DNA from: a virus
Virus record (IMG/VR): IMGVR_UViG_3300031576_000059
Coordinates: 1 to 52,520 of that record
Direction: 5' to 3' (one strand)
DNA: 52,520 nt
The translations under genes and the position numbers were made by a program. The notes under the pieces are model-generated. The model did not search any database, was not told the DNA's origin, and worked only from the letters and a program-made list of their open reading frames with translations. Within the stretch, counting starts at the first letter, position 1; every line of letters starts with the position of its first letter. Shown piece after piece: positions 34,408 through 52,102 of the stretch.

Positions 34408-34558
34408 GATACATCTCCTTGAACCTCGGCGGCACCCCGAGGGGCACCCGCTCTCCGCAATCGCACACGGCCCGCAGCGCCCCGAGCAGCCCTGGTAGGA
34501 ACATCTGGCCGCAGGCGGAGCACGTATGTGGGGCCTCTCTTAGCCATGCGCCTGTCAC
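34397..34558 (-). CDS. 53-residue zinc-ribbon protein
   Basis: GTG 34558 overlaps the polymerase stop (GTGA) and has GGAGAGG just upstream, which decides the start. The product has C-S-A-C-G near residue 13 and C-D-C-G near 32, a compact zinc ribbon. It is translated with the polymerase and could be a small polymerase-associated factor, but nothing proves it. Confidence 0.6.
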   Translation of the reverse strand: MTGAWLREAPHTCSACGQMFLPGLLGALRAVCDCGERVPLGVPPRFKEMYLGS

Positions 34559-36042
34559 AGCACCCTCTCCATCCCCCCCGGATTCCCCTCGCTCTTCGGT
34601 CCCCAATTCCTTCCTCGACTCACCTCCACCCTCGGTCTCCATGTCGCCTTCCCTATGAGCGCCTCGAACTCCGGCACCTCGCGCTCAAGTGTGTGTTTGA
34701 CCTCCTTCGTCAGCCTCTCCGCTTCCTCCTCCCGGACCTCCACGACGTGCTCATCGTGCTGCACAGTGTACAAGCCCACTCCCAGCGCCGTCAGGTCCGC
34801 GATCCCCACGAGATGCAGCACCGCATTCATGCTCTGCGGCCCCGTTGCTAGCGCCTCCTTGCGCTGCTTGCTGTCGAGCATGAGCACCCGCCTGCCTCCA
34901 GAAGACTTCGCCGTCACGTCGAAGAACCTCCTCCTGAACCCGAACACCGTTCGCAACTCCCTACGCGCCAGCACCTCCTCCTCTACCCCCTTTTGCCACA
35001 CCGGGATCTCCGGCCACGCAGCGAAGTAGGCCGCTCGTCCGGCCGCTGCCAACCGCTGCTCGATCCTCATCCGCCGAGCGAGGTTGAAATCCCCTTCACC
35101 ATAGTCCTCTGCGTGGGTGAACGTCTTGCACACCGAGCGCCGCGCTTTCCACCCCGCCTTGTCGTTCCACGACCACCCGAAGATCGGCGCCAGCAGCTCC
35201 AGGTTCTGTGAATGGATGTCCTCTTCGCGCTCATAAGCCTCCACCGCTCGTCCGCACCTCGCTGCGATCATCGTCATGATCCACTCGATCTGCGCCGCAT
35301 CCGCCGCGAGCAGCACATGCCCCGGCCGCGCCACGTAGATACTCCTCACGTCCTTTGGGATGTTCTGCCCGTTGTAATCCTCCTCCTCGATTGGAACGTC
35401 CTCGCGGATCGCCCCTGAGCGGATCCGCAGCGTTGAAGTGCCACACAACGACGAGTTCGGATGCGCACATCCATCCACCCCTATCGGCGGATCCAGAAAC
35501 GTCCGTAGTCGCTGCCCTACGTGCGCGAGGGAGATCAGCGTCCGCAGCAGCGGCACGGCCGCATCCGGCGTCGAGCGTAGCTCCAACAGCTCCTGGAGCA
35601 CGAGGAGACGGACGCTGCGGATCCCCGTGTCCGTCCACCCAATCGCCGGCCACTTGAGCCCCAGCTCCTCGCCCAGCAGCCACCTCACATGATCCGGCTT
35701 CACCGGGTTGAAGTTCGACAGCCTCAGCTTCCGCCGCACCACCGGGCTCGCCTTCCACTCCCGGATCGCCGCACGCCGCTCGGCGCACCGCTCGCACTTC
35801 CGTACCCCTTCTCCTCGATTCGGGTGCGGATGCTCGCTGCACCCCTCGACCTCCGGGCCATCGATCTTCGGCACCCTCGGCGCGGCCACTGCGAGCACCT
35901 CGTCCGAGGCCCTGGCGTGCTCCTTCTTGGCCTCCTCGCGCTTGCGCTCCAGCTCCTCGGTGTCCACCAGCATCCCTCGCCGCCGCATCGCTACGAGCGG
36001 GGCGAGAGTGGGGGCGATGATCGACGAGTAGAGGGGGCGCAT
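34555..36042 (-). CDS. polA: family A DNA polymerase (polymerase domain only)
   Basis: A 495-residue polymerase with the three palm/fingers motifs: motif A D248-A-A-Q-I-E (normally D-Y-S-Q-I-E), motif B R302 to K306 through Y314-G, and motif C H429-D430-E431. The N-terminal 200 residues are thumb-like (G-M-L-V-D-T-E-E-L at 23-31) and hold a Cys/His cluster (C68, H71, C83, C86) that looks like a zinc insertion. The 3'-5' exonuclease domain is missing here and is encoded by 36442-37671. Known role: template-directed synthesis of the genome. Start ATG 36042 overlaps the previous stop; a TTG 33 bases upstream is less likely. Confidence 0.88.
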   Translation of the reverse strand: MRPLYSSIIAPTLAPLVAMRRRGMLVDTEELERKREEAKKEHARASDEVLAVAAPRVPKIDGPEVEGCSEHPHPNRGEGVRKCERCAERRAAIREWKASPVVRRKLRLSNFNPVKPDHVRWLLGEELGLKWPAIGWTDTGIRSVRLLVLQELLELRSTPDAAVPLLRTLISLAHVGQRLRTFLDPPIGVDGCAHPNSSLCGTSTLRIRSGAIREDVPIEEEDYNGQNIPKDVRSIYVARPGHVLLAADAAQIEWIMTMIAARCGRAVEAYEREEDIHSQNLELLAPIFGWSWNDKAGWKARRSVCKTFTHAEDYGEGDFNLARRMRIEQRLAAAGRAAYFAAWPEIPVWQKGVEEEVLARRELRTVFGFRRRFFDVTAKSSGGRRVLMLDSKQRKEALATGPQSMNAVLHLVGIADLTALGVGLYTVQHDEHVVEVREEEAERLTKEVKHTLEREVPEFEALIGKATWRPRVEVSRGRNWGPKSEGNPGGMERVL

Positions 36043-40486: not shown

Positions 40487-40725
40487 CCCCGTCCTCCTTG
40501 TGTCCCGTGCCGCTTCCCGAGATACTCCTCCAGGTACGTCCCCCTATTCGGCAGCCCGCGCATGTCGCGCCTCCAGAATTGCGCCCCCGCCCACCCGCAC
40601 CGTGCGGGAGCCGGGCGCACCTTGCCGAGGATGCCCGGCACGGACGGGGGCGCGAGATCGCACCACTTCTTCTTCAATGGGCAGCCTCGATTTGAACGAG
40701 GGACGAGAAGGGCTTCTCTCGTCAT
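40483..40725 (-). CDS. hypothetical protein
   Basis: An 80-residue protein, basic, with two Cys in C-P-L-K-K-K-W-C and G-x-P-N-R-G-T-Y-L-E-E-Y near the end. ATG 40725 has AAGG five bases upstream; a TTG 18 bases earlier is possible. The stop overlaps the next ATG. No family recognised. Confidence 0.5.
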   Translation of the reverse strand: MTREALLVPRSNRGCPLKKKWCDLAPPSVPGILGKVRPAPARCGWAGAQFWRRDMRGLPNRGTYLEEYLGKRHGTQGGRG

Positions 40726-40805
40726 ATTAGCCTTGGGGACCAATGACCCCCCTTGCGCCTTTGTACCGGGCCAACGCCACGTCTCTGCCCATCGAAACGC
40801 CTACG

Positions 40806-43743: not shown

Positions 43744-43882
43744 CGCCCCTCCCCTCCGCAGCGAACAGCTCGTTGATCATCTCGTCCGTTTCGTCTGAGT
43801 CAAGGCGCTCGGGTGGAATCGAGAGCCCCGTCATCTCGTGGATCCACTTTACGAGCAGCTCAGTGCTCTGTCTGCACGGCAT
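43724..43882 (-). CDS. 52-residue acidic protein
   Basis: ATG 43882 opens a frame that bridges the 43744-43859 gap between two genes and overlaps both by about 20 bases. The product is acidic and helical (P-E-R-L-D-S-D-E-T-D-E-M-I-N-E-L-F). The ribosome binding site is weak (AGGCGAG). The continuous packing of the block supports it. Confidence 0.5.
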   Translation of the reverse strand: MPCRQSTELLVKWIHEMTGLSIPPERLDSDETDEMINELFAAEGRGDGVREE

Positions 43883-44231
43883 CCGCTCGCCTCCCCAATC
43901 GCTCCAGTAGGTACGTAAGCACCGCCAGATCCCCTGCTTCCGGGTTCGCGTCGATCACCTTGGCGATGAACGTGGCTTTCGTGCTCGAAGTCAGCTTCGG
44001 CTTCGTGAACAGTGCAATGGGGGGCGCTTCCTTCCCTTGCATCACGGCTTGGATCGCAGCGAAACTGCTCGACTTGACCCGCTTCCCCCTCCGCGCGAGG
44101 ACCAGCGTGCTCAGACTCACCCCCGCTGCCTCCGCCATCTTTAGCCACGTCAACCCCTTGCTCTCCTTCCACTCCAGAAGCTGCCTCGCAAGCGCCTTCC
44201 CTGTAGCAACCGAGCTTCCGCCTCTCGCCAT
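43860..44231 (-). CDS. XRE-type helix-turn-helix regulator
   Basis: A 123-residue protein with an HTH near residues 28-60: L-T-W-L-K-M-A-E-A-A-G-V-S-L-S-T-L then R-R-G-K-R-V-K. This is the Cro/CI-type fold in a variant form. The C-terminal half is helical and may dimerise. One of two XRE proteins 400 bases apart. Probably controls early transcription. Confidence 0.65.
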   Translation of the reverse strand: MARGGSSVATGKALARQLLEWKESKGLTWLKMAEAAGVSLSTLVLARRGKRVKSSSFAAIQAVMQGKEAPPIALFTKPKLTSSTKATFIAKVIDANPEAGDLAVLTYLLERLGRRADAVQTEH

Positions 44232-44448: not shown

Positions 44449-44634
44449 TTACCCTCCACAGGACTTGAACAAGACAATCGCGCAAGCCAAGGCGCCAACT
44501 AGCCCCGTTAGAGCCAAGATAAAGGGAATCCACCCGAGCCAGTAGTCCAGCCTCGCCTCGCGTTTCCGCTTGAGGAACCTCCTTCTCGCATCGACTTCGC
44601 CCGGAATCTCGTGTGTAGAGCCTCCGCGTCTCAA
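44449..44634 (-). CDS. small membrane protein, TTG start
   Basis: A 61-residue protein with a basic N-terminal half and one membrane helix (W-I-P-F-I-L-A-L-T-G-L-V-G-A-L-A-C-A-I-V) near the C-terminus. TTG 44634 overlaps the stop of the preceding regulator, with GGAGAGG five bases upstream. Possible inner-membrane anchor or superinfection-exclusion peptide; unproven. Confidence 0.55.
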   Translation of the reverse strand: MRRGGSTHEIPGEVDARRRFLKRKREARLDYWLGWIPFILALTGLVGALACAIVLFKSCGG

Positions 44635-44978
44635 TGTGCCCTCTCCTGCGCCCGCAGGATCCCATTCATCGCCCGTGCGAGCACCCGCATCTCCGGCCCA
44701 AGCGACGATATCTCCCTCTCACCCATCGCCTCGATCCGCACCCGCTTCCCGATGGTTTCGAGCGCGCACACCAACTCGGGGCGGGTGTGAAAGAGCCTCG
44801 CCATGCGGATCGTGTTGTCCCGGCTCGGCAGGCACCGGCCGCCTTCCCACCCATACACCGTCCCCCTCTCCACCCCGAGCAGCTCTGCCATCTTCGCCGT
44901 GGAGATCCCTGCCTCCAATCGCAGGTCTCGGATGATCGTCGCGGCCTCGTCCAGTCGGTTCTTTCTGAGTTTCGTCAT
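44631..44978 (-). CDS. XRE-family helix-turn-helix regulator
   Basis: A 115-residue protein with a textbook Cro/CI HTH at about 17-57: L-E-A-G-I-S-T-A-K-M-A-E-L-L-G-V then G-T-V-Y-G-W-E-G-G. The start is ATG 44978 with GGAGG six bases upstream; the frame is open for 35 more codons upstream but without a site. A DNA-binding repressor or activator of this block. Confidence 0.78.
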   Translation of the reverse strand: MTKLRKNRLDEAATIIRDLRLEAGISTAKMAELLGVERGTVYGWEGGRCLPSRDNTIRMARLFHTRPELVCALETIGKRVRIEAMGEREISSLGPEMRVLARAMNGILRAQERAH

Positions 44979-45247
44979 GCGGTGCCTCCTCGTAACTCGT
45001 TCAGTTCGTGTAGCGCAGAACACAACTTGCACCCGCACCCTTCGTGCGGCGCGGTGTCCTCGTGCTCCCTGTGCTCCCTCCAAACCGCCAGCGAACTCTC
45101 CAGCCCCGCGATTTTCGCTTTGGGGTCCAGGTCCGCTACCCTCACCTTCAACTCATCCCTCTCGATCAGCGCCGCTACGATCTTCGAGACGCTCACCGAG
45201 ATTTCCGTGTCAGGGATATCCTCGATCCTGTTTGGCTCACCCTTCAC
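44975..45247 (-). CDS. hypothetical protein with Cys cluster
   Basis: A 90-residue protein: helical, acidic, with a C-terminal H-E-G-C-G-C-K-L-C that could bind metal. GTG 45247; the first 14 bases, GTGAAGGGTGAGCC, are identical to those of the upstream gene at 45410, so the two genes share their translation start. Confidence 0.6.
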   Translation of the reverse strand: MKGEPNRIEDIPDTEISVSVSKIVAALIERDELKVRVADLDPKAKIAGLESSLAVWREHREHEDTAPHEGCGCKLCSALHELNELRGGTA

Positions 45248-45410: not shown

Positions 45411-45657
45411 GACTTACCTCCACCTGGACCTCGAACTCCAGATCCCCGAGGATCTCCGAGATCAACCTCGGCTGCTGTGATCCATCCATCGAAAACCACG
45501 GGATAATCCTCCCGTCCTCCGGCGGATCAGGGGTGATCCACAACCCCCGCTCCCACGCAGATCGCAGGAACCCTAGCATCTCCCCTTTGTACCTCACCCG
45601 AAGCCCCACAAGCTGTCGCTGAGGCTCCAATTCCGTCGCTCGAATCCACTGGGTCAC
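45400..45657 (-). CDS. hypothetical beta-type protein
   Basis: An 85-residue protein with V-G-L-R-V-R-Y-K-G-E-M-L-G-F and G-L-W-I-T-P-D-P-P-E-D-G-R-I-I-P, suggestive of a small SH3-like barrel. GTG 45657 overlaps the RadC-like stop. Unknown function. Confidence 0.55.
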   Translation of the reverse strand: MTQWIRATELEPQRQLVGLRVRYKGEMLGFLRSAWERGLWITPDPPEDGRIIPWFSMDGSQQPRLISEILGDLEFEVQVEVSREG

Positions 45658-46106
45658 ATCAGCCCCCTCTCCCTCATCGACACGAGCCCTCTCGGACTCA
45701 CGATCAGGTGATCGTACAACCCGATCCCCAGGATGTCCGCCGCTTTCCGAATCGCCATCGTGAAGTCCTGGTCCTCCTGGCTCACCTCCAGGCTTCCAGA
45801 CGGATGATTGTGCGCGAGGATCACCCCCATCGCCCCATGATCAATCGCCGGCTTGAATATCTCTCTCGGATGCGTGTGGGTGGTGTTTAGGCTCCCCACC
45901 GAAATCTCCTCCCTCGCAAGGAGCTGATTCTGAGCGTCGAGATAGAGTCCCACGAGGTGCTCGCGCTTCATCTTCGACAGCCCACGAACAACGGCGTAGG
46001 CGGTCTTGGGATCGGAGATCGCCTGTGCCTCCCTCACCTCCACCTGTCCCCCGCACATCTCGCACACCGCGTAGCTCCCCTTACCGTTCGCTTTATACTT
46101 GCTCAT
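45654..46106 (-). CDS. radC: RadC-type JAMM domain protein
   Basis: A 150-residue protein: an N-terminal C-E-M-C-G, then the RadC/JAB fold with a complete metal site H-N-H-x7-S-x2-D in H-N-H-P-S-G-S-L-E-V-S-Q-E-D, and an upstream Glu in the E-I-S-V-G region. It lacks the helix-hairpin-helix domain of chromosomal RadC, as do many plasmid and phage versions. Metal-dependent hydrolase fold; the true substrate of RadC proteins is unknown. It follows the E1-like gene by two small genes, so the block has two JAMM proteins. Confidence 0.85.
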   Translation of the reverse strand: MSKYKANGKGSYAVCEMCGGQVEVREAQAISDPKTAYAVVRGLSKMKREHLVGLYLDAQNQLLAREEISVGSLNTTHTHPREIFKPAIDHGAMGVILAHNHPSGSLEVSQEDQDFTMAIRKAADILGIGLYDHLIVSPRGLVSMRERGLM

Positions 46107-46276
46107 GCCGTCCCTCTCTGCCTCCTAAGCAGCCTCTTGAAACACCGCTCCCCACACGTATCGACGTGCTCACTCTGCCCACGCCCCGGTCCAAGTGGCT
46201 TCAACAGCCTCCCGCAGATCACGCACTGGCGCGGCTGGACTTCTCGCCCCTGTTGAATCCAGATTCCCCGTGTCAT
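46103..46276 (-). CDS. 57-residue zinc-finger protein
   Basis: ATG 46276 overlaps the previous stop, with GGAGG five bases upstream. The product has C-V-I-C-G near residue 18 and C-G-E-R-C-F-K-R-L near 41, a treble-clef-like pair with a basic helix after it. Unknown role. Confidence 0.6.
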   Translation of the reverse strand: MTRGIWIQQGREVQPRQCVICGRLLKPLGPGRGQSEHVDTCGERCFKRLLRRQRGTA

Positions 46277-46473
46277 CTCACCCTCCAACAGTTGCACTCC
46301 GGCGGCGCGCAGCAGCTACATTCCGCCAAGAGAGTCCCACTACATAGCAGGCACCTCCAGACATTCCCTCTCAGGTACACCGCATCGTTCTGTTCTGCCT
46401 GCCACCGGACATTTACAACCGTCTGCTTCGTTTCCCTCGCAAGCTCAACCGCCCGTTCATCCGTTAGGATCAT
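46273..46473 (-). CDS. 66-residue Cys-rich protein downstream of the E1-like gene
   Basis: ATG 46473 overlaps the E1-like stop (ATGA), so it is translated with that gene. The N-terminal half is helical. The C-terminal half is packed with Cys: W-R-C-L-L-C, then E-C-S-C-C-A-P-P-E-C-N-C. It could bind one or two zinc ions. Being coupled to the conjugation genes, it is a possible accessory or substrate of that system, which is inference. Confidence 0.6.
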   Translation of the reverse strand: MILTDERAVELARETKQTVVNVRWQAEQNDAVYLRGNVWRCLLCSGTLLAECSCCAPPECNCWRVR

Positions 46474-47150
46474 GCCGCCCTCACCTCCTCCACGAAACCC
46501 GCTCGGAAGTTCCACTCCACCCTCTCCGGGAGCACCCTATCCCCCCTCTCCCCCGCGAGCCACATCGTGAGCGCCGCTCCCGTGATCGCCGCCGCGTTCG
46601 AGCACAGCGCCCTCGCGCCGCACTCCGAATGCGTGTATGTCACCCCGAACAGGCTCCTCTCGAAGTCCTCCACGCTCGTCGGAGGGCAGAACACCACGCT
46701 CCCTCCCTCCGGTGCCACCCGCACGTCGATGATCCGCCGCGGCGCTCGTCCTCGTGTCATCGCCGCTCGCCATCCGTCGATTGTGGCGTGCCATCCCTCC
46801 TCCGCGTCTGCGCACATGAACACCACCTTCTCGTCGAGAAGCGGTTGTCCAGGGGCTCCTGTGAACATCTCAGGGATCGCCCGCACCCGCAACCCCGTCA
46901 TGAGCCGGATCCCCCGTGCCAGCGCCCTCACCTTCGCCTCCCCCACAGCCCCCGGAGCATACACCTGCGCCGGCAGGTTGTGAGGCTCCACCTTGTCGGC
47001 ATCCATGACCATAACGCTCTCGAACCCCATCTTTGCGAGCTGGAGCGTAAACCAGCTCCCCGTAGTCCCGGCGCCGAGGATGAGCACCTCCACGCGCCGG
47101 AGCGCTGCCGGGACCAGTCCCTCCTGCCGTCTGTAGTCCGCCGCTGTCAT
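46470..47150 (-). CDS. ThiF/E1-like ubiquitin-activating enzyme homologue
   Basis: A 226-residue protein of the E1/ThiF/MoeB superfamily. Seen: nucleotide loop G26-A-G-T-T-G-S32, D50 at the end of strand 2 (V-M-V-M-D-A-D-K-V-E), N58-L-P-A-Q62 (the E1 N-x-x-x-Q element; the usual Arg before Gln is Ala), K73, D115 in C-A-D-A-E-E, and a Cys pair C177/C183 in E-C-G-A-R-A-L-C where related E1s carry the transfer Cys. The family adenylates the C-terminus of a ubiquitin-like protein. ATG 47150; the frame extends 33 codons upstream, but that part overlaps the JAMM gene. Next to a JAMM and an E2-like gene. Confidence 0.82.
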   Translation of the reverse strand: MTAADYRRQEGLVPAALRRVEVLILGAGTTGSWFTLQLAKMGFESVMVMDADKVEPHNLPAQVYAPGAVGEAKVRALARGIRLMTGLRVRAIPEMFTGAPGQPLLDEKVVFMCADAEEGWHATIDGWRAAMTRGRAPRRIIDVRVAPEGGSVVFCPPTSVEDFERSLFGVTYTHSECGARALCSNAAAITGAALTMWLAGERGDRVLPERVEWNFRAGFVEEVRAA

Positions 47151-47151
47151 G

Positions 47152-48048
47152 TCAGGCACAGCTCTCCTCCCACTCTTGAAGGTATGCCTGGAGCACCCGC
47201 CGCATGAGCTTGAACTTCCGCACCTGGACCCAGCTCCCCGACGTTCCACGAGGCTCCCCAGCCCATCGCCACAGTTTCCCGTTCGTGACCTCGTAGATCA
47301 ATCCCCCCACCGTGGTCTGTTGCCCCTCGAACGCCTCCAGCTCGTCCACCACCTCCACCCTCGTCATCCCCTTCACCGAGGTGAAGTCGTCCGCGCTAGT
47401 CCCTCCACCTCCCCCACCAGCGATCTCGCCAGTCCTGGAGAGGCTCCCCACAAAAGGGCGAGTGGTGTCCTCCCCATCGAAGTTGAACGATCTCACACCG
47501 TCGAGGAGCGAAATCGTCGCCCGCTTCGTCGCCGCCCTCGCCGCCGCGGCCTGCTCCGCCTCCCACGGATACGCCACTCTCTCCTCCACGAACTCCAGGT
47601 CCGTGATCCTCACGAACACCGGCTTGTTCACGTACAGCTCCCCGGCGATCTCCCCCTTGAGATTGTGCGTGATCCCCACGCACCAGTCCTTCGCGCCGAA
47701 GTGCTTGAGCAGACTCTTAGAGTCCTCGCTGCTTCGGTGCGCCGCCAGTGCCGCATGGCTGTGCCCCTCCATGTTCAGGTCCGCCGGGTCACACCCATCG
47801 GCGAACACCCTCTCGTAGAGCGCGCTCACCTCCTCCGCGTCGATGTCCCCGTGCGCTGCCCCGACCTTCTGCACCGCTGGCAGCCACACCCGCTCCACGC
47901 GCACGCACGAGGAACTCACCAGCCTCGCAATCCCCAGCCACGCGATCTCCGTAGCCGTCCCGCCCCCGTTGTCATCCAGCCCCGCGTTCTCGATCCACGT
48001 CTTCACGAGTGCGAGGATCTCGTTCGGAAACCTCACTTTGACAGGCAT
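47152..48048 (-). CDS. JAMM/MPN+ isopeptidase-like protein
   Basis: A 298-residue protein. Residues 1-150 form a JAB/MPN+ domain: E34 in T-E-I-A-W-L-G, then H96-S-H98-x7-S106-x2-D109 in H-S-H-A-A-L-A-A-H-R-S-S-E-D, a perfect zinc site. The remaining half contains an Ala-rich helix, a Gly-rich linker and a C-terminal domain ending in helices. Such proteins remove or mature ubiquitin-like modifiers. It lies one base from the E1-like gene and nine from the E2-like gene, so all three should be one message. The C-terminal extension is larger than in minimal JAMM proteases and may bind substrate. Confidence 0.83.
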   Translation of the reverse strand: MPVKVRFPNEILALVKTWIENAGLDDNGGGTATEIAWLGIARLVSSSCVRVERVWLPAVQKVGAAHGDIDAEEVSALYERVFADGCDPADLNMEGHSHAALAAHRSSEDSKSLLKHFGAKDWCVGITHNLKGEIAGELYVNKPVFVRITDLEFVEERVAYPWEAEQAAAARAATKRATISLLDGVRSFNFDGEDTTRPFVGSLSRTGEIAGGGGGGTSADDFTSVKGMTRVEVVDELEAFEGQQTTVGGLIYEVTNGKLWRWAGEPRGTSGSWVQVRKFKLMRRVLQAYLQEWEESCA

Positions 48049-50902: not shown

Positions 50903-51099
50903 CTCGCCCCCTCCCCCGGATCCCTCATCCGAAACACTCCCGACTTCATCGCGTCCCCCGTACACGCCTCACACATCCGTGTACCCGTGCGGTCCTCCAT
51001 GTCCACCCGAAACAAGGTAGCCGTGGCCCTCTCCTCGCACGAGCCCAGGCACTCTGGGCACGAGGGGTCCGTGTCCTCGCACACCGGCCTGTGGCTCAT
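50899..51099 (-). CDS. small zinc-finger protein
   Basis: A 66-residue protein with C-P-E-C-L-G-S-C near residue 14 and C-E-A-C near 44: a zinc ribbon around a short beta hairpin (A-T-A-T-L-F-R-V-D). ATG 51099 has GGAGG four bases upstream and overlaps the previous stop. Confidence 0.65.
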   Translation of the reverse strand: MSHRPVCEDTDPSCPECLGSCEERATATLFRVDMEDRTGTRMCEACTGDAMKSGVFRMRDPGEGAR

Positions 51100-51287
51100 C
51101 TGGCCTCCCTCCACGCCGGCCCCGGCATGAGCGCCGAGAGTGCCATGAGCAGTCCTGCGGCGACCACGCATCTCCTCCGCTCCAGGCCCCGGCACTCCAG
51201 CTCCTCGACCTCGAATTGTAGCCTCTCCGCACGTTGCTCCACCCTCCCCCTCCACGTCGCTTCGAACCGTGTCACCTGCGTTGTCAT
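51096..51287 (-). CDS. first gene of the early block, helical with hydrophobic end
   Basis: A 63-residue protein: a charged coiled-coil-like helix (W-R-G-R-V-E-Q-R-A-E-R-L-Q-F-E-V-E-E-L-E) followed by a hydrophobic C-terminal stretch (V-V-A-A-G-L-L-M-A-L-S-A-L). Possibly a tail-anchored membrane peptide. GAGGTAGC precedes ATG 51287. It is the promoter-proximal gene of the long minus-strand block. Confidence 0.6.
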   Translation of the reverse strand: MTTQVTRFEATWRGRVEQRAERLQFEVEELECRGLERRRCVVAAGLLMALSALMPGPAWREAR

Positions 51288-51451
51288 GCTACCTCCCCTC
51301 GCGTGAGATTACCTCGCCACCCTCCTCGCACGTCTCGCCTCGTGTCCCTCGCGCATCTCGCGCGGGGATCGTGCTCGAAAGGCTGGTCGATCCAGGATTC
51401 TACTTTCACTTCCGAAACCGCCGATTTCCGAATTGTCCTAGAGCAGAGCGG

Positions 51452-51480
51452 CATTTGGAGTGAACTACAATGAATGTCAC
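51452..51480 (-). promoter_or_regulatory. candidate early promoter, leftward
   Basis: Minus-strand GTGACA (51480-51475), 17 bases, CAAATG (51457-51452). Both boxes are imperfect. Support comes from the fact that the right arm holds the same layout at the mirror position. It would drive the whole 33.6-51.3 kb block. Confidence 0.4.
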
Positions 51481-51485
51481 CCATG

Positions 51486-51504
51486 ACTGACAAAGATTGT
51501 CAGT
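51486..51504. promoter_or_regulatory. central palindromic operator
   Basis: ACTGACA (51486-51492) and TGTCAGT (51498-51504) form a perfect 7-bp dyad with a 5-base spacer, the size of a site for a dimeric helix-turn-helix protein. It lies between the two mirrored promoters, so one bound dimer could control both directions. The XRE proteins at 43860 and 44631 are candidates to bind it. Confidence 0.55.
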
Positions 51505-51519
51505 ATTGGCCGCTGTGGC

Positions 51520-51548
51520 GTGACCTAAATTGTCGTTCACTCTAAAAC
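51520..51548 (+). promoter_or_regulatory. candidate promoter, rightward
   Basis: GTGACC (51520-51525), a 17-base spacer, TAAAAC (51543-51548): four of six matches in each box, in the right arm of the inverted duplication, pointing at the gene at 51644. Confidence 0.45.
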
Positions 51549-51602
51549 CATTGCGGCACTAGGACGATTCGGAGATTGCTGGTTTCGGAGCCGTCTACAG
51601 AG

Positions 51603-51623
51603 GAAGTCGGATAGGCCGACTTC
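51603..51623 (+). promoter_or_regulatory. leader hairpin before the 51644 gene
   Basis: GAAGTCGG (51603-51610) and CCGACTTC (51616-51623) form a perfect 8-bp stem with a 5-base loop, 20 bases before ATG 51644. It could protect the message or modulate translation. Confidence 0.5.
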
Positions 51624-51643
51624 GCTAAAACATGGAGCGAGAT

Positions 51644-52102
51644 ATGAGCGAGAACATGCGAGCAGAGACGGACATCCTGAAAGAGCTGAACGCCACCCAC
51701 AAAAAGGCTGGAGGGCGGCAACTCGGGGAACATGTCGGGTACGCGATCTCCGTGCGGCTACCGAAGTACGTCGAAGGGAGCGCCGTCCGGGTCCATGCGG
51801 TACACGTCGCAGGGGAGGATCTGGTGCTCGCACCTCCGCTGGGCGCAGAGGAAACGTCGGAGATGCTCCGGGGAGTGGATTCCCCGGAGATGCGGCGGGC
51901 GGTAAGCGAAGCGGCGGTCGGCACAATTCCCTTTGCGTGGGATCTGGAAGGCGCGCAAATCGAAGAGGGAACGATCAACGCGCAAGACTACATGCTGGTC
52001 TCTCCCGAACCGCGCAAGGCGAAGGGCGTAGCGCCCACGGTGGATCTGGCGGCAGTGATCGCCTCGGCGGTCAAGGCCGCGTTGAAGTCGGTCAAGGCGT
52101 AA
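51644..52102 (+). CDS. hypothetical protein, rightward early gene
   Basis: A 152-residue protein: a charged helical start, a beta-type middle (G-Y-A-I-S-V-R-L-P-K-Y-V-E-G, V-H-V-A-G-E-D-L-V-L-A-P-P), an acidic stretch and an Ala/Val/Lys helix at the end (A-V-I-A-S-A-V-K-A-A-L-K-S-V-K). No family recognised. ATG 51644 has GGAG six bases upstream, better than ATG 51632. Its coding strand is G-rich, unlike the other plus-strand genes. Promoter-proximal in the divergent region, so probably expressed early and strongly. Confidence 0.65.
   Translation: MSENMRAETDILKELNATHKKAGGRQLGEHVGYAISVRLPKYVEGSAVRVHAVHVAGEDLVLAPPLGAEETSEMLRGVDSPEMRRAVSEAAVGTIPFAWDLEGAQIEEGTINAQDYMLVSPEPRKAKGVAPTVDLAAVIASAVKAALKSVKA

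Follow-up and report, generated by a model that had tools for sequence, protein, structure and literature searches.

What is a large palindrome doing between two gene blocks that are read away from each other? The question is raised by a locus centred on position 51500 of the IMG/VR virus record IMGVR_UViG_3300031576_000059, all 52,520 nucleotides of which make up the window analysed here. The record is complete, and its two ends share a direct repeat of 127 bases; the genome is therefore a circle or a terminally redundant molecule of 52,393 bases. Its GC content is about 64%, and the 51500 region is among the least GC-rich 0.4% of its stretches of equal size. The open reading frames (ORFs) on both sides point away from the region, beginning with the following two.

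51096-51287, minus strand: ORF of 63 aa, the first on the left to have a good ribosome-binding site, recognised from the sequence upstream of its ATG and not picked by the codon-usage caller
51644-52102, plus strand: first rightward gene, 152 aa, supported by codon usage, with no Pfam or PHROGs match

For the 152-aa protein, structure modelling gave nothing usable (mean pLDDT 37.7). Two genes further away had been named XRE in the first-pass annotation of this DNA. The product of 44631-45083, which lies 6.4 kb from the 51500 region, has an HTH match, and for the product of 43860-44231 neither Pfam nor PHROGs gave such a match. In the early region, genes for a RadC-like JAB-domain protein and a ThiF-type E1-like protein are near neighbours (45654-47249), an arrangement also found in ubiquitin-like or PRTRC-type clusters. 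ARAGORN called a 97-nt tRNA-Trp at 40677-40773 on the minus strand, overlapping ORF ends; the length is unusual for a tRNA, and the call may be false.

An imperfect palindrome of about 180 bp (51411-51589) had been described between the two blocks, and self-alignment, an axis scan and shuffles all bear it out. It is an inverted repeat with two arms of 70 nt each, which match at 52 of 70 positions (74% complementary) without a single indel. The arms are separated by 39 nt, and the axis of symmetry lies at 51500.

51411-51480, minus strand: left arm, outward unit, 52 of 70 matches to the right arm with no gap
51520-51589, plus strand: right arm, outward unit, 52 of 70 matches to the left arm
51481-51519, no strand: unique centre between the arms, with the axis at 51500, from the arm and axis scans
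51486-51504, no strand: small off-axis dyad ACTGACA-N5-TGTCAGT, a possible operator, seen in the sequence and not above the genome background

Over all axes of the whole record, the mean was 23.4 matches of 90 (sd 4.5); the axis at 51500 had 61, and the runner-up had 45. When 51300-51700 was shuffled with dinucleotide content preserved (n = 300), the best 70-nt arm pair reached 38 of 70 matches, as opposed to the 52 observed. A chance origin of the mirror symmetry is refuted by these two comparisons, and we give it practically no weight. The two arms thus have above-chance mirror identity in one register, as an inverted duplication would. The 18 mismatches show no significant clustering (runs test p = 0.24). 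The lowest-identity 18-nt stretch lies between the candidate promoter hexamers described below (9 of 18 matches, and 43 of 52 elsewhere); this is the pattern expected of a promoter spacer, at a position-permutation p of 0.14. The five blocks that had been listed as recurring on both sides (TCCGAAACC, TCCGAA, GTCCTAG, GAGTGAAC-N-ACAAT and GTCAC) are all present in mirror register, but these same two tests lend no support to treating them as separate units. Each arm contains TTCGGA twice, 16 bp apart. No further copy of an arm was found elsewhere in the genome, which argues for a single local event and not for a family of dispersed sites. The ACTGACA-N5-TGTCAGT dyad exists, but it does not hold the central position assigned to it, as its centre (51495) is 5 bp off the axis. 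In this genome, a stretch of 180 bp contains on average about 0.18 perfect 7+7 dyads with spacers of 0-10, and the dyad alone is not unusual. As a single strand, the region folds into a strong hairpin (z about -8); this follows from the inverted repeat and hence was not counted as functional evidence.

The mirror similarity extends beyond the limits first drawn for it, to about 51331 and 51670. A gapped alignment of both sides outward from the axis scored 80 and reached about 170 nt, compared with at most 39 in 500 shuffles. Tested alone, the outer part (51331-51363 versus 51637-51670) scored 29. With the register unrestricted, this score was reached by dinucleotide shuffles of the two sides in 2.6% and 3.3% of cases and by random genome pieces in 2.8% and 0.4%. 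With the register allowed to depart from its mirror position by at most 3 nt (1000 shuffles per side, up to 1500 genome pieces per side and three segment choices), it was reached by 0 to 0.3% of controls, values that are somewhat flattering for a similarity spotted post hoc in the alignment. The outer part also lies in GCGAG-rich sequence. None of 106 slid registers matched the score. In the alignment, the start codon of the right gene (ATG at 51644) faces an ATG on the left (51356), and each is exactly 144 nt from the axis.

51331-51363, minus strand: outer left mirror part, around the ATG at 51356, from banded alignment against 51637-51670 (fraction of controls at most 0.003)
51637-51670, plus strand: outer right mirror part, around the ATG at 51644, from banded alignment against 51331-51363
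51309-51356, minus strand: 15-codon ORF (MREGHEARRARRVAR) that mirrors the start of the right gene, with its ATG at offset 144 from the axis

Together, the unclustered mismatches and the outer part indicate that the likeness of the arms goes beyond short protein-binding boxes. The right leader also contains a perfect 8-bp hairpin (GAAGTCGG/CCGACTTC, 51603-51623) just ahead of the gene (z -2.6). The left leader has no counterpart of it, and its folding is at chance level (z -0.3).

A sigma-70 scan of the 51500 region found no promoter, and an actinobacterial promoter consensus, TTGACR-18-TAGRRT, gave nothing over background there. Neither did the GTGAC boxes when read as -35 elements (8 of 12 at best). 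The -10-like boxes said to fall at equivalent places in both arms proved no better than chance. The best promoter candidate is a mirrored TTCACT-18-TAGGAC, a quality of match that is found 5.75 times per kb in this genome, and mismatches are not clearly spared from the putative boxes.

51435-51464, minus strand: tentative left candidate hexamers TTCACT-18-TAGGAC, of a match quality common in the genome
51536-51565, plus strand: tentative right candidate hexamers TTCACT-18-TAGGAC, of a match quality common in the genome

Rfam has no match for the region. Judging from their place between divergent ORFs, the arms likely drive transcription.

An ungapped 70-bp register with unclustered mismatches, followed by a start codon, is most simply accounted for by an inverted duplication. 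The two copies keep one register, reach to both start codons and lie between divergent ORFs. We consider it probable that the 51500 region is an ancient head-to-head inverted duplication of one control unit, with outward-facing copies that exert shared control over both blocks. Much the same had been suggested in the first-pass annotation, as a promoter-leader unit duplicated head to head. The duplication stands, on the strength of the ungapped 70 bp and the ATGs at 144 nt; that the units are promoters we infer from position, and their outward direction and common control are likewise put forward as probable. The ancestral unit would have comprised an upstream site, a promoter, a leader and a gene start, copied so that each copy reads outward from 51500. 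The right copy would still drive the 152-aa gene at 51644, and the left copy would now drive the leftward early block, in which 51287 is the start of the first well-placed gene. The left mirror start codon at 51356 opens only the 15-codon ORF, which may be a relic of the duplicated gene start or a leader peptide. Since the duplication, the arms would have diverged by 26%, and the gene would have been lost on the left. Not one indel accompanies the 18 substitutions (26% of 70 bp), which suggests that spacing has been held under constraint. Because the two promoters would have their upstream and initially transcribed stretches in common, both gene blocks could be turned on or off together by a single factor (host polymerase with a phage regulator). 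The region is thus most likely a pair of twin outward promoters that switch both gene blocks on together, and it is probably an ordinary kind of control region. If this is true, a phage can gain equally controlled divergent operons by copying a promoter, leader and start codon, after which the spare start decays. The arms would then also be a natural experiment, in which the features that are alike in both mark what the promoter requires.

We looked for relatives in several ways. Scanning viral contigs with five proteins of the window, one at a time, found none. DNA patterns derived from the arms hit no viral stretches and had two matches in bacterial genomes, both of which were judged to be chance: one (L087) shares only the 18-nt spacing and comes from a Riflebacteria contig that is AT-rich, and the other (L088) has a different spacing and reads like coding sequence. 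A distant blastn of the 51500 region gave matches of 29 bases or fewer against phages and none against plasmids.

An origin with paired protein sites had been offered as the other reading of the palindrome. It is less supported, given that a second palindrome occupies the place of a primase-linked origin and has no motif in common with the first.

238-340, no strand: second palindrome, probable replication origin, not part of the duplication, directly after the stop of the D5 primase-helicase gene

The gene in question (329-1768) encodes a primase-helicase of the D5/P4 type (Pfam D5_N, E 4.6e-22; PHROGs DNA primase). The palindrome has arms of 42 nt (238-279 and 299-340) that are 76% complementary, and it contains CTGAATAGTT/AACTATTCAG and CCCGTCAG repeats. 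The primase was aligned with five phage homologues, and the best 80 of more than 600 candidate viral stretches were taken (L007-L086). These loci have no other noteworthy gene in common with the window and were therefore used for origin comparison only. In 40 of them, compared with 3.04 expected by position alone, the strongest palindrome of the locus fell within the 0-400 bp that follow the primase match; in the other 40 it fell elsewhere. The loci are partly related to one another and do not amount to 40 independent cases. After the primase, the palindromes take the form of inverted short-repeat arrays whose repeats vary between phages (e.g., TGTCCG, CCGTCAG), and CCGTCAG repeats occur in AcaML1 and in L009 at a position equivalent to 238-340. 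In AcaML1, the best 40-nt axis (13764) lies in the gap after the primase; AbbeyMikolon and Gack have no post-primase palindrome axis. In the closest primase relatives (L007-L009), the best axis is elsewhere, and post-primase inverted repeats are visible by eye. Four axes in the 80 loci reached at least 44 of 70 matches, and all four lie at the post-primase origin place. Based on this placement in viral loci and on phage Sfi21, the replication origin of the window is most probably 238-340. In many unrelated phages, the D5-type primase gene is followed by a large array of inverted repeats, which provides a handle for locating origins in uncultured phages, and the strongest palindrome within 400 bp after such a gene is a possible general marker for them.

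Base composition also bears on replication. The local GC skew switches sign at the 51500 region (from about -0.3 to about +0.15). Round the circle, the cumulative skew declines steadily between about 3200 and 51500 and then stays level from there to 3200. The plus-strand skew is negative throughout 3200-51500, irrespective of gene direction, which is rightward in the first half and leftward in the second. The coding strand has an excess of C at the fourfold sites of rightward genes (-0.53) and an excess of G at those of leftward genes (+0.30). Such a profile would suit mostly one-way replication from the 51500-3200 interval. This interval holds both palindromes, and the skew therefore does not choose between them.

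Could replication nevertheless start at 51500, from two inverted sets of initiator sites placed around a central melting region, perhaps as a second origin beside 238-340? Palindromes this strong are typical of origins, as the four post-primase axes illustrate, and the region is AT-rich for this genome, sits where the skew stops its steady fall and becomes flat, and resembles the putative origin of lactococcal phage c2 in lying between divergent early and late genes. However, the post-primase origin place is already taken by 238-340, with which 51500 shares no motif (best local score 15, shuffle mean 16.5, p = 0.82). Its arms lack the tandem short repeats of other origins, with only TTCGGA present twice per arm, and it is about 1.2 kb from the primase stop round the circle, whereas a primase-linked origin would be expected within about 400 bp after it. 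Mirror similarity out to the start codons would also be unexpected for an origin. We therefore regard an origin at 51500 as unlikely. A combined arrangement seems quite improbable to us: 51500 would be a hub, at once a second origin distinct from 238-340 and a twin promoter, at which a regulator or initiator bound to both arms would couple the start of replication to transcription of both early blocks.

The remaining explanations dispense with a duplicated control unit. Phages commonly have divergent promoters that answer to one regulator, as in TP901-1, and the two halves might be independent promoters of the same class that look alike through a common regulator and polymerase. The ungapped 70-bp likeness, with an outer part in register, far exceeds the length of a promoter. 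Resemblance in short boxes would be expected if only the regulator were common, and no third copy was found at other promoters of the genome, so we hold independent promoters to be rather improbable. Two inverted arms flanking a unique centre could also recall the remnant of an inserted MITE-like element with inverted ends. This we consider very improbable, as the genome has no other copy, plasmids and phages gave no match, and no flanking target repeat was seen by eye.

The 51500 region can be compared with several known systems. The lactococcal phage c2 early/late intergenic region likewise lies between divergent blocks and has annotated promoters as well as its putative origin. It contains the best 70-nt axis of its genome, a weak one (38 of 70); c2 thus lacks strong mirror symmetry, and its sequence is unrelated to the window. 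The origin of Sfi21 is likewise a large imperfect palindrome in non-coding DNA, and the best axis of that genome (34627) falls within the annotated origin (34487-34784). It adjoins the primase and has tandem short repeats, and consequently its equivalent in the window is 238-340 and not 51411-51589. The PR/PL region of TP901-1 is likewise a short region between divergent phage genes, and 51500 is similarly a probable target of a phage repressor. The 51500 region differs in that its halves are mirror copies out to the start codons, its repressor and promoters are putative, and its HTH gene is 6.4 kb off instead of adjoining the region. Divergent phage promoters are well known, but in the open papers searched we met no described pair that is mirror-copied out to the start codon.
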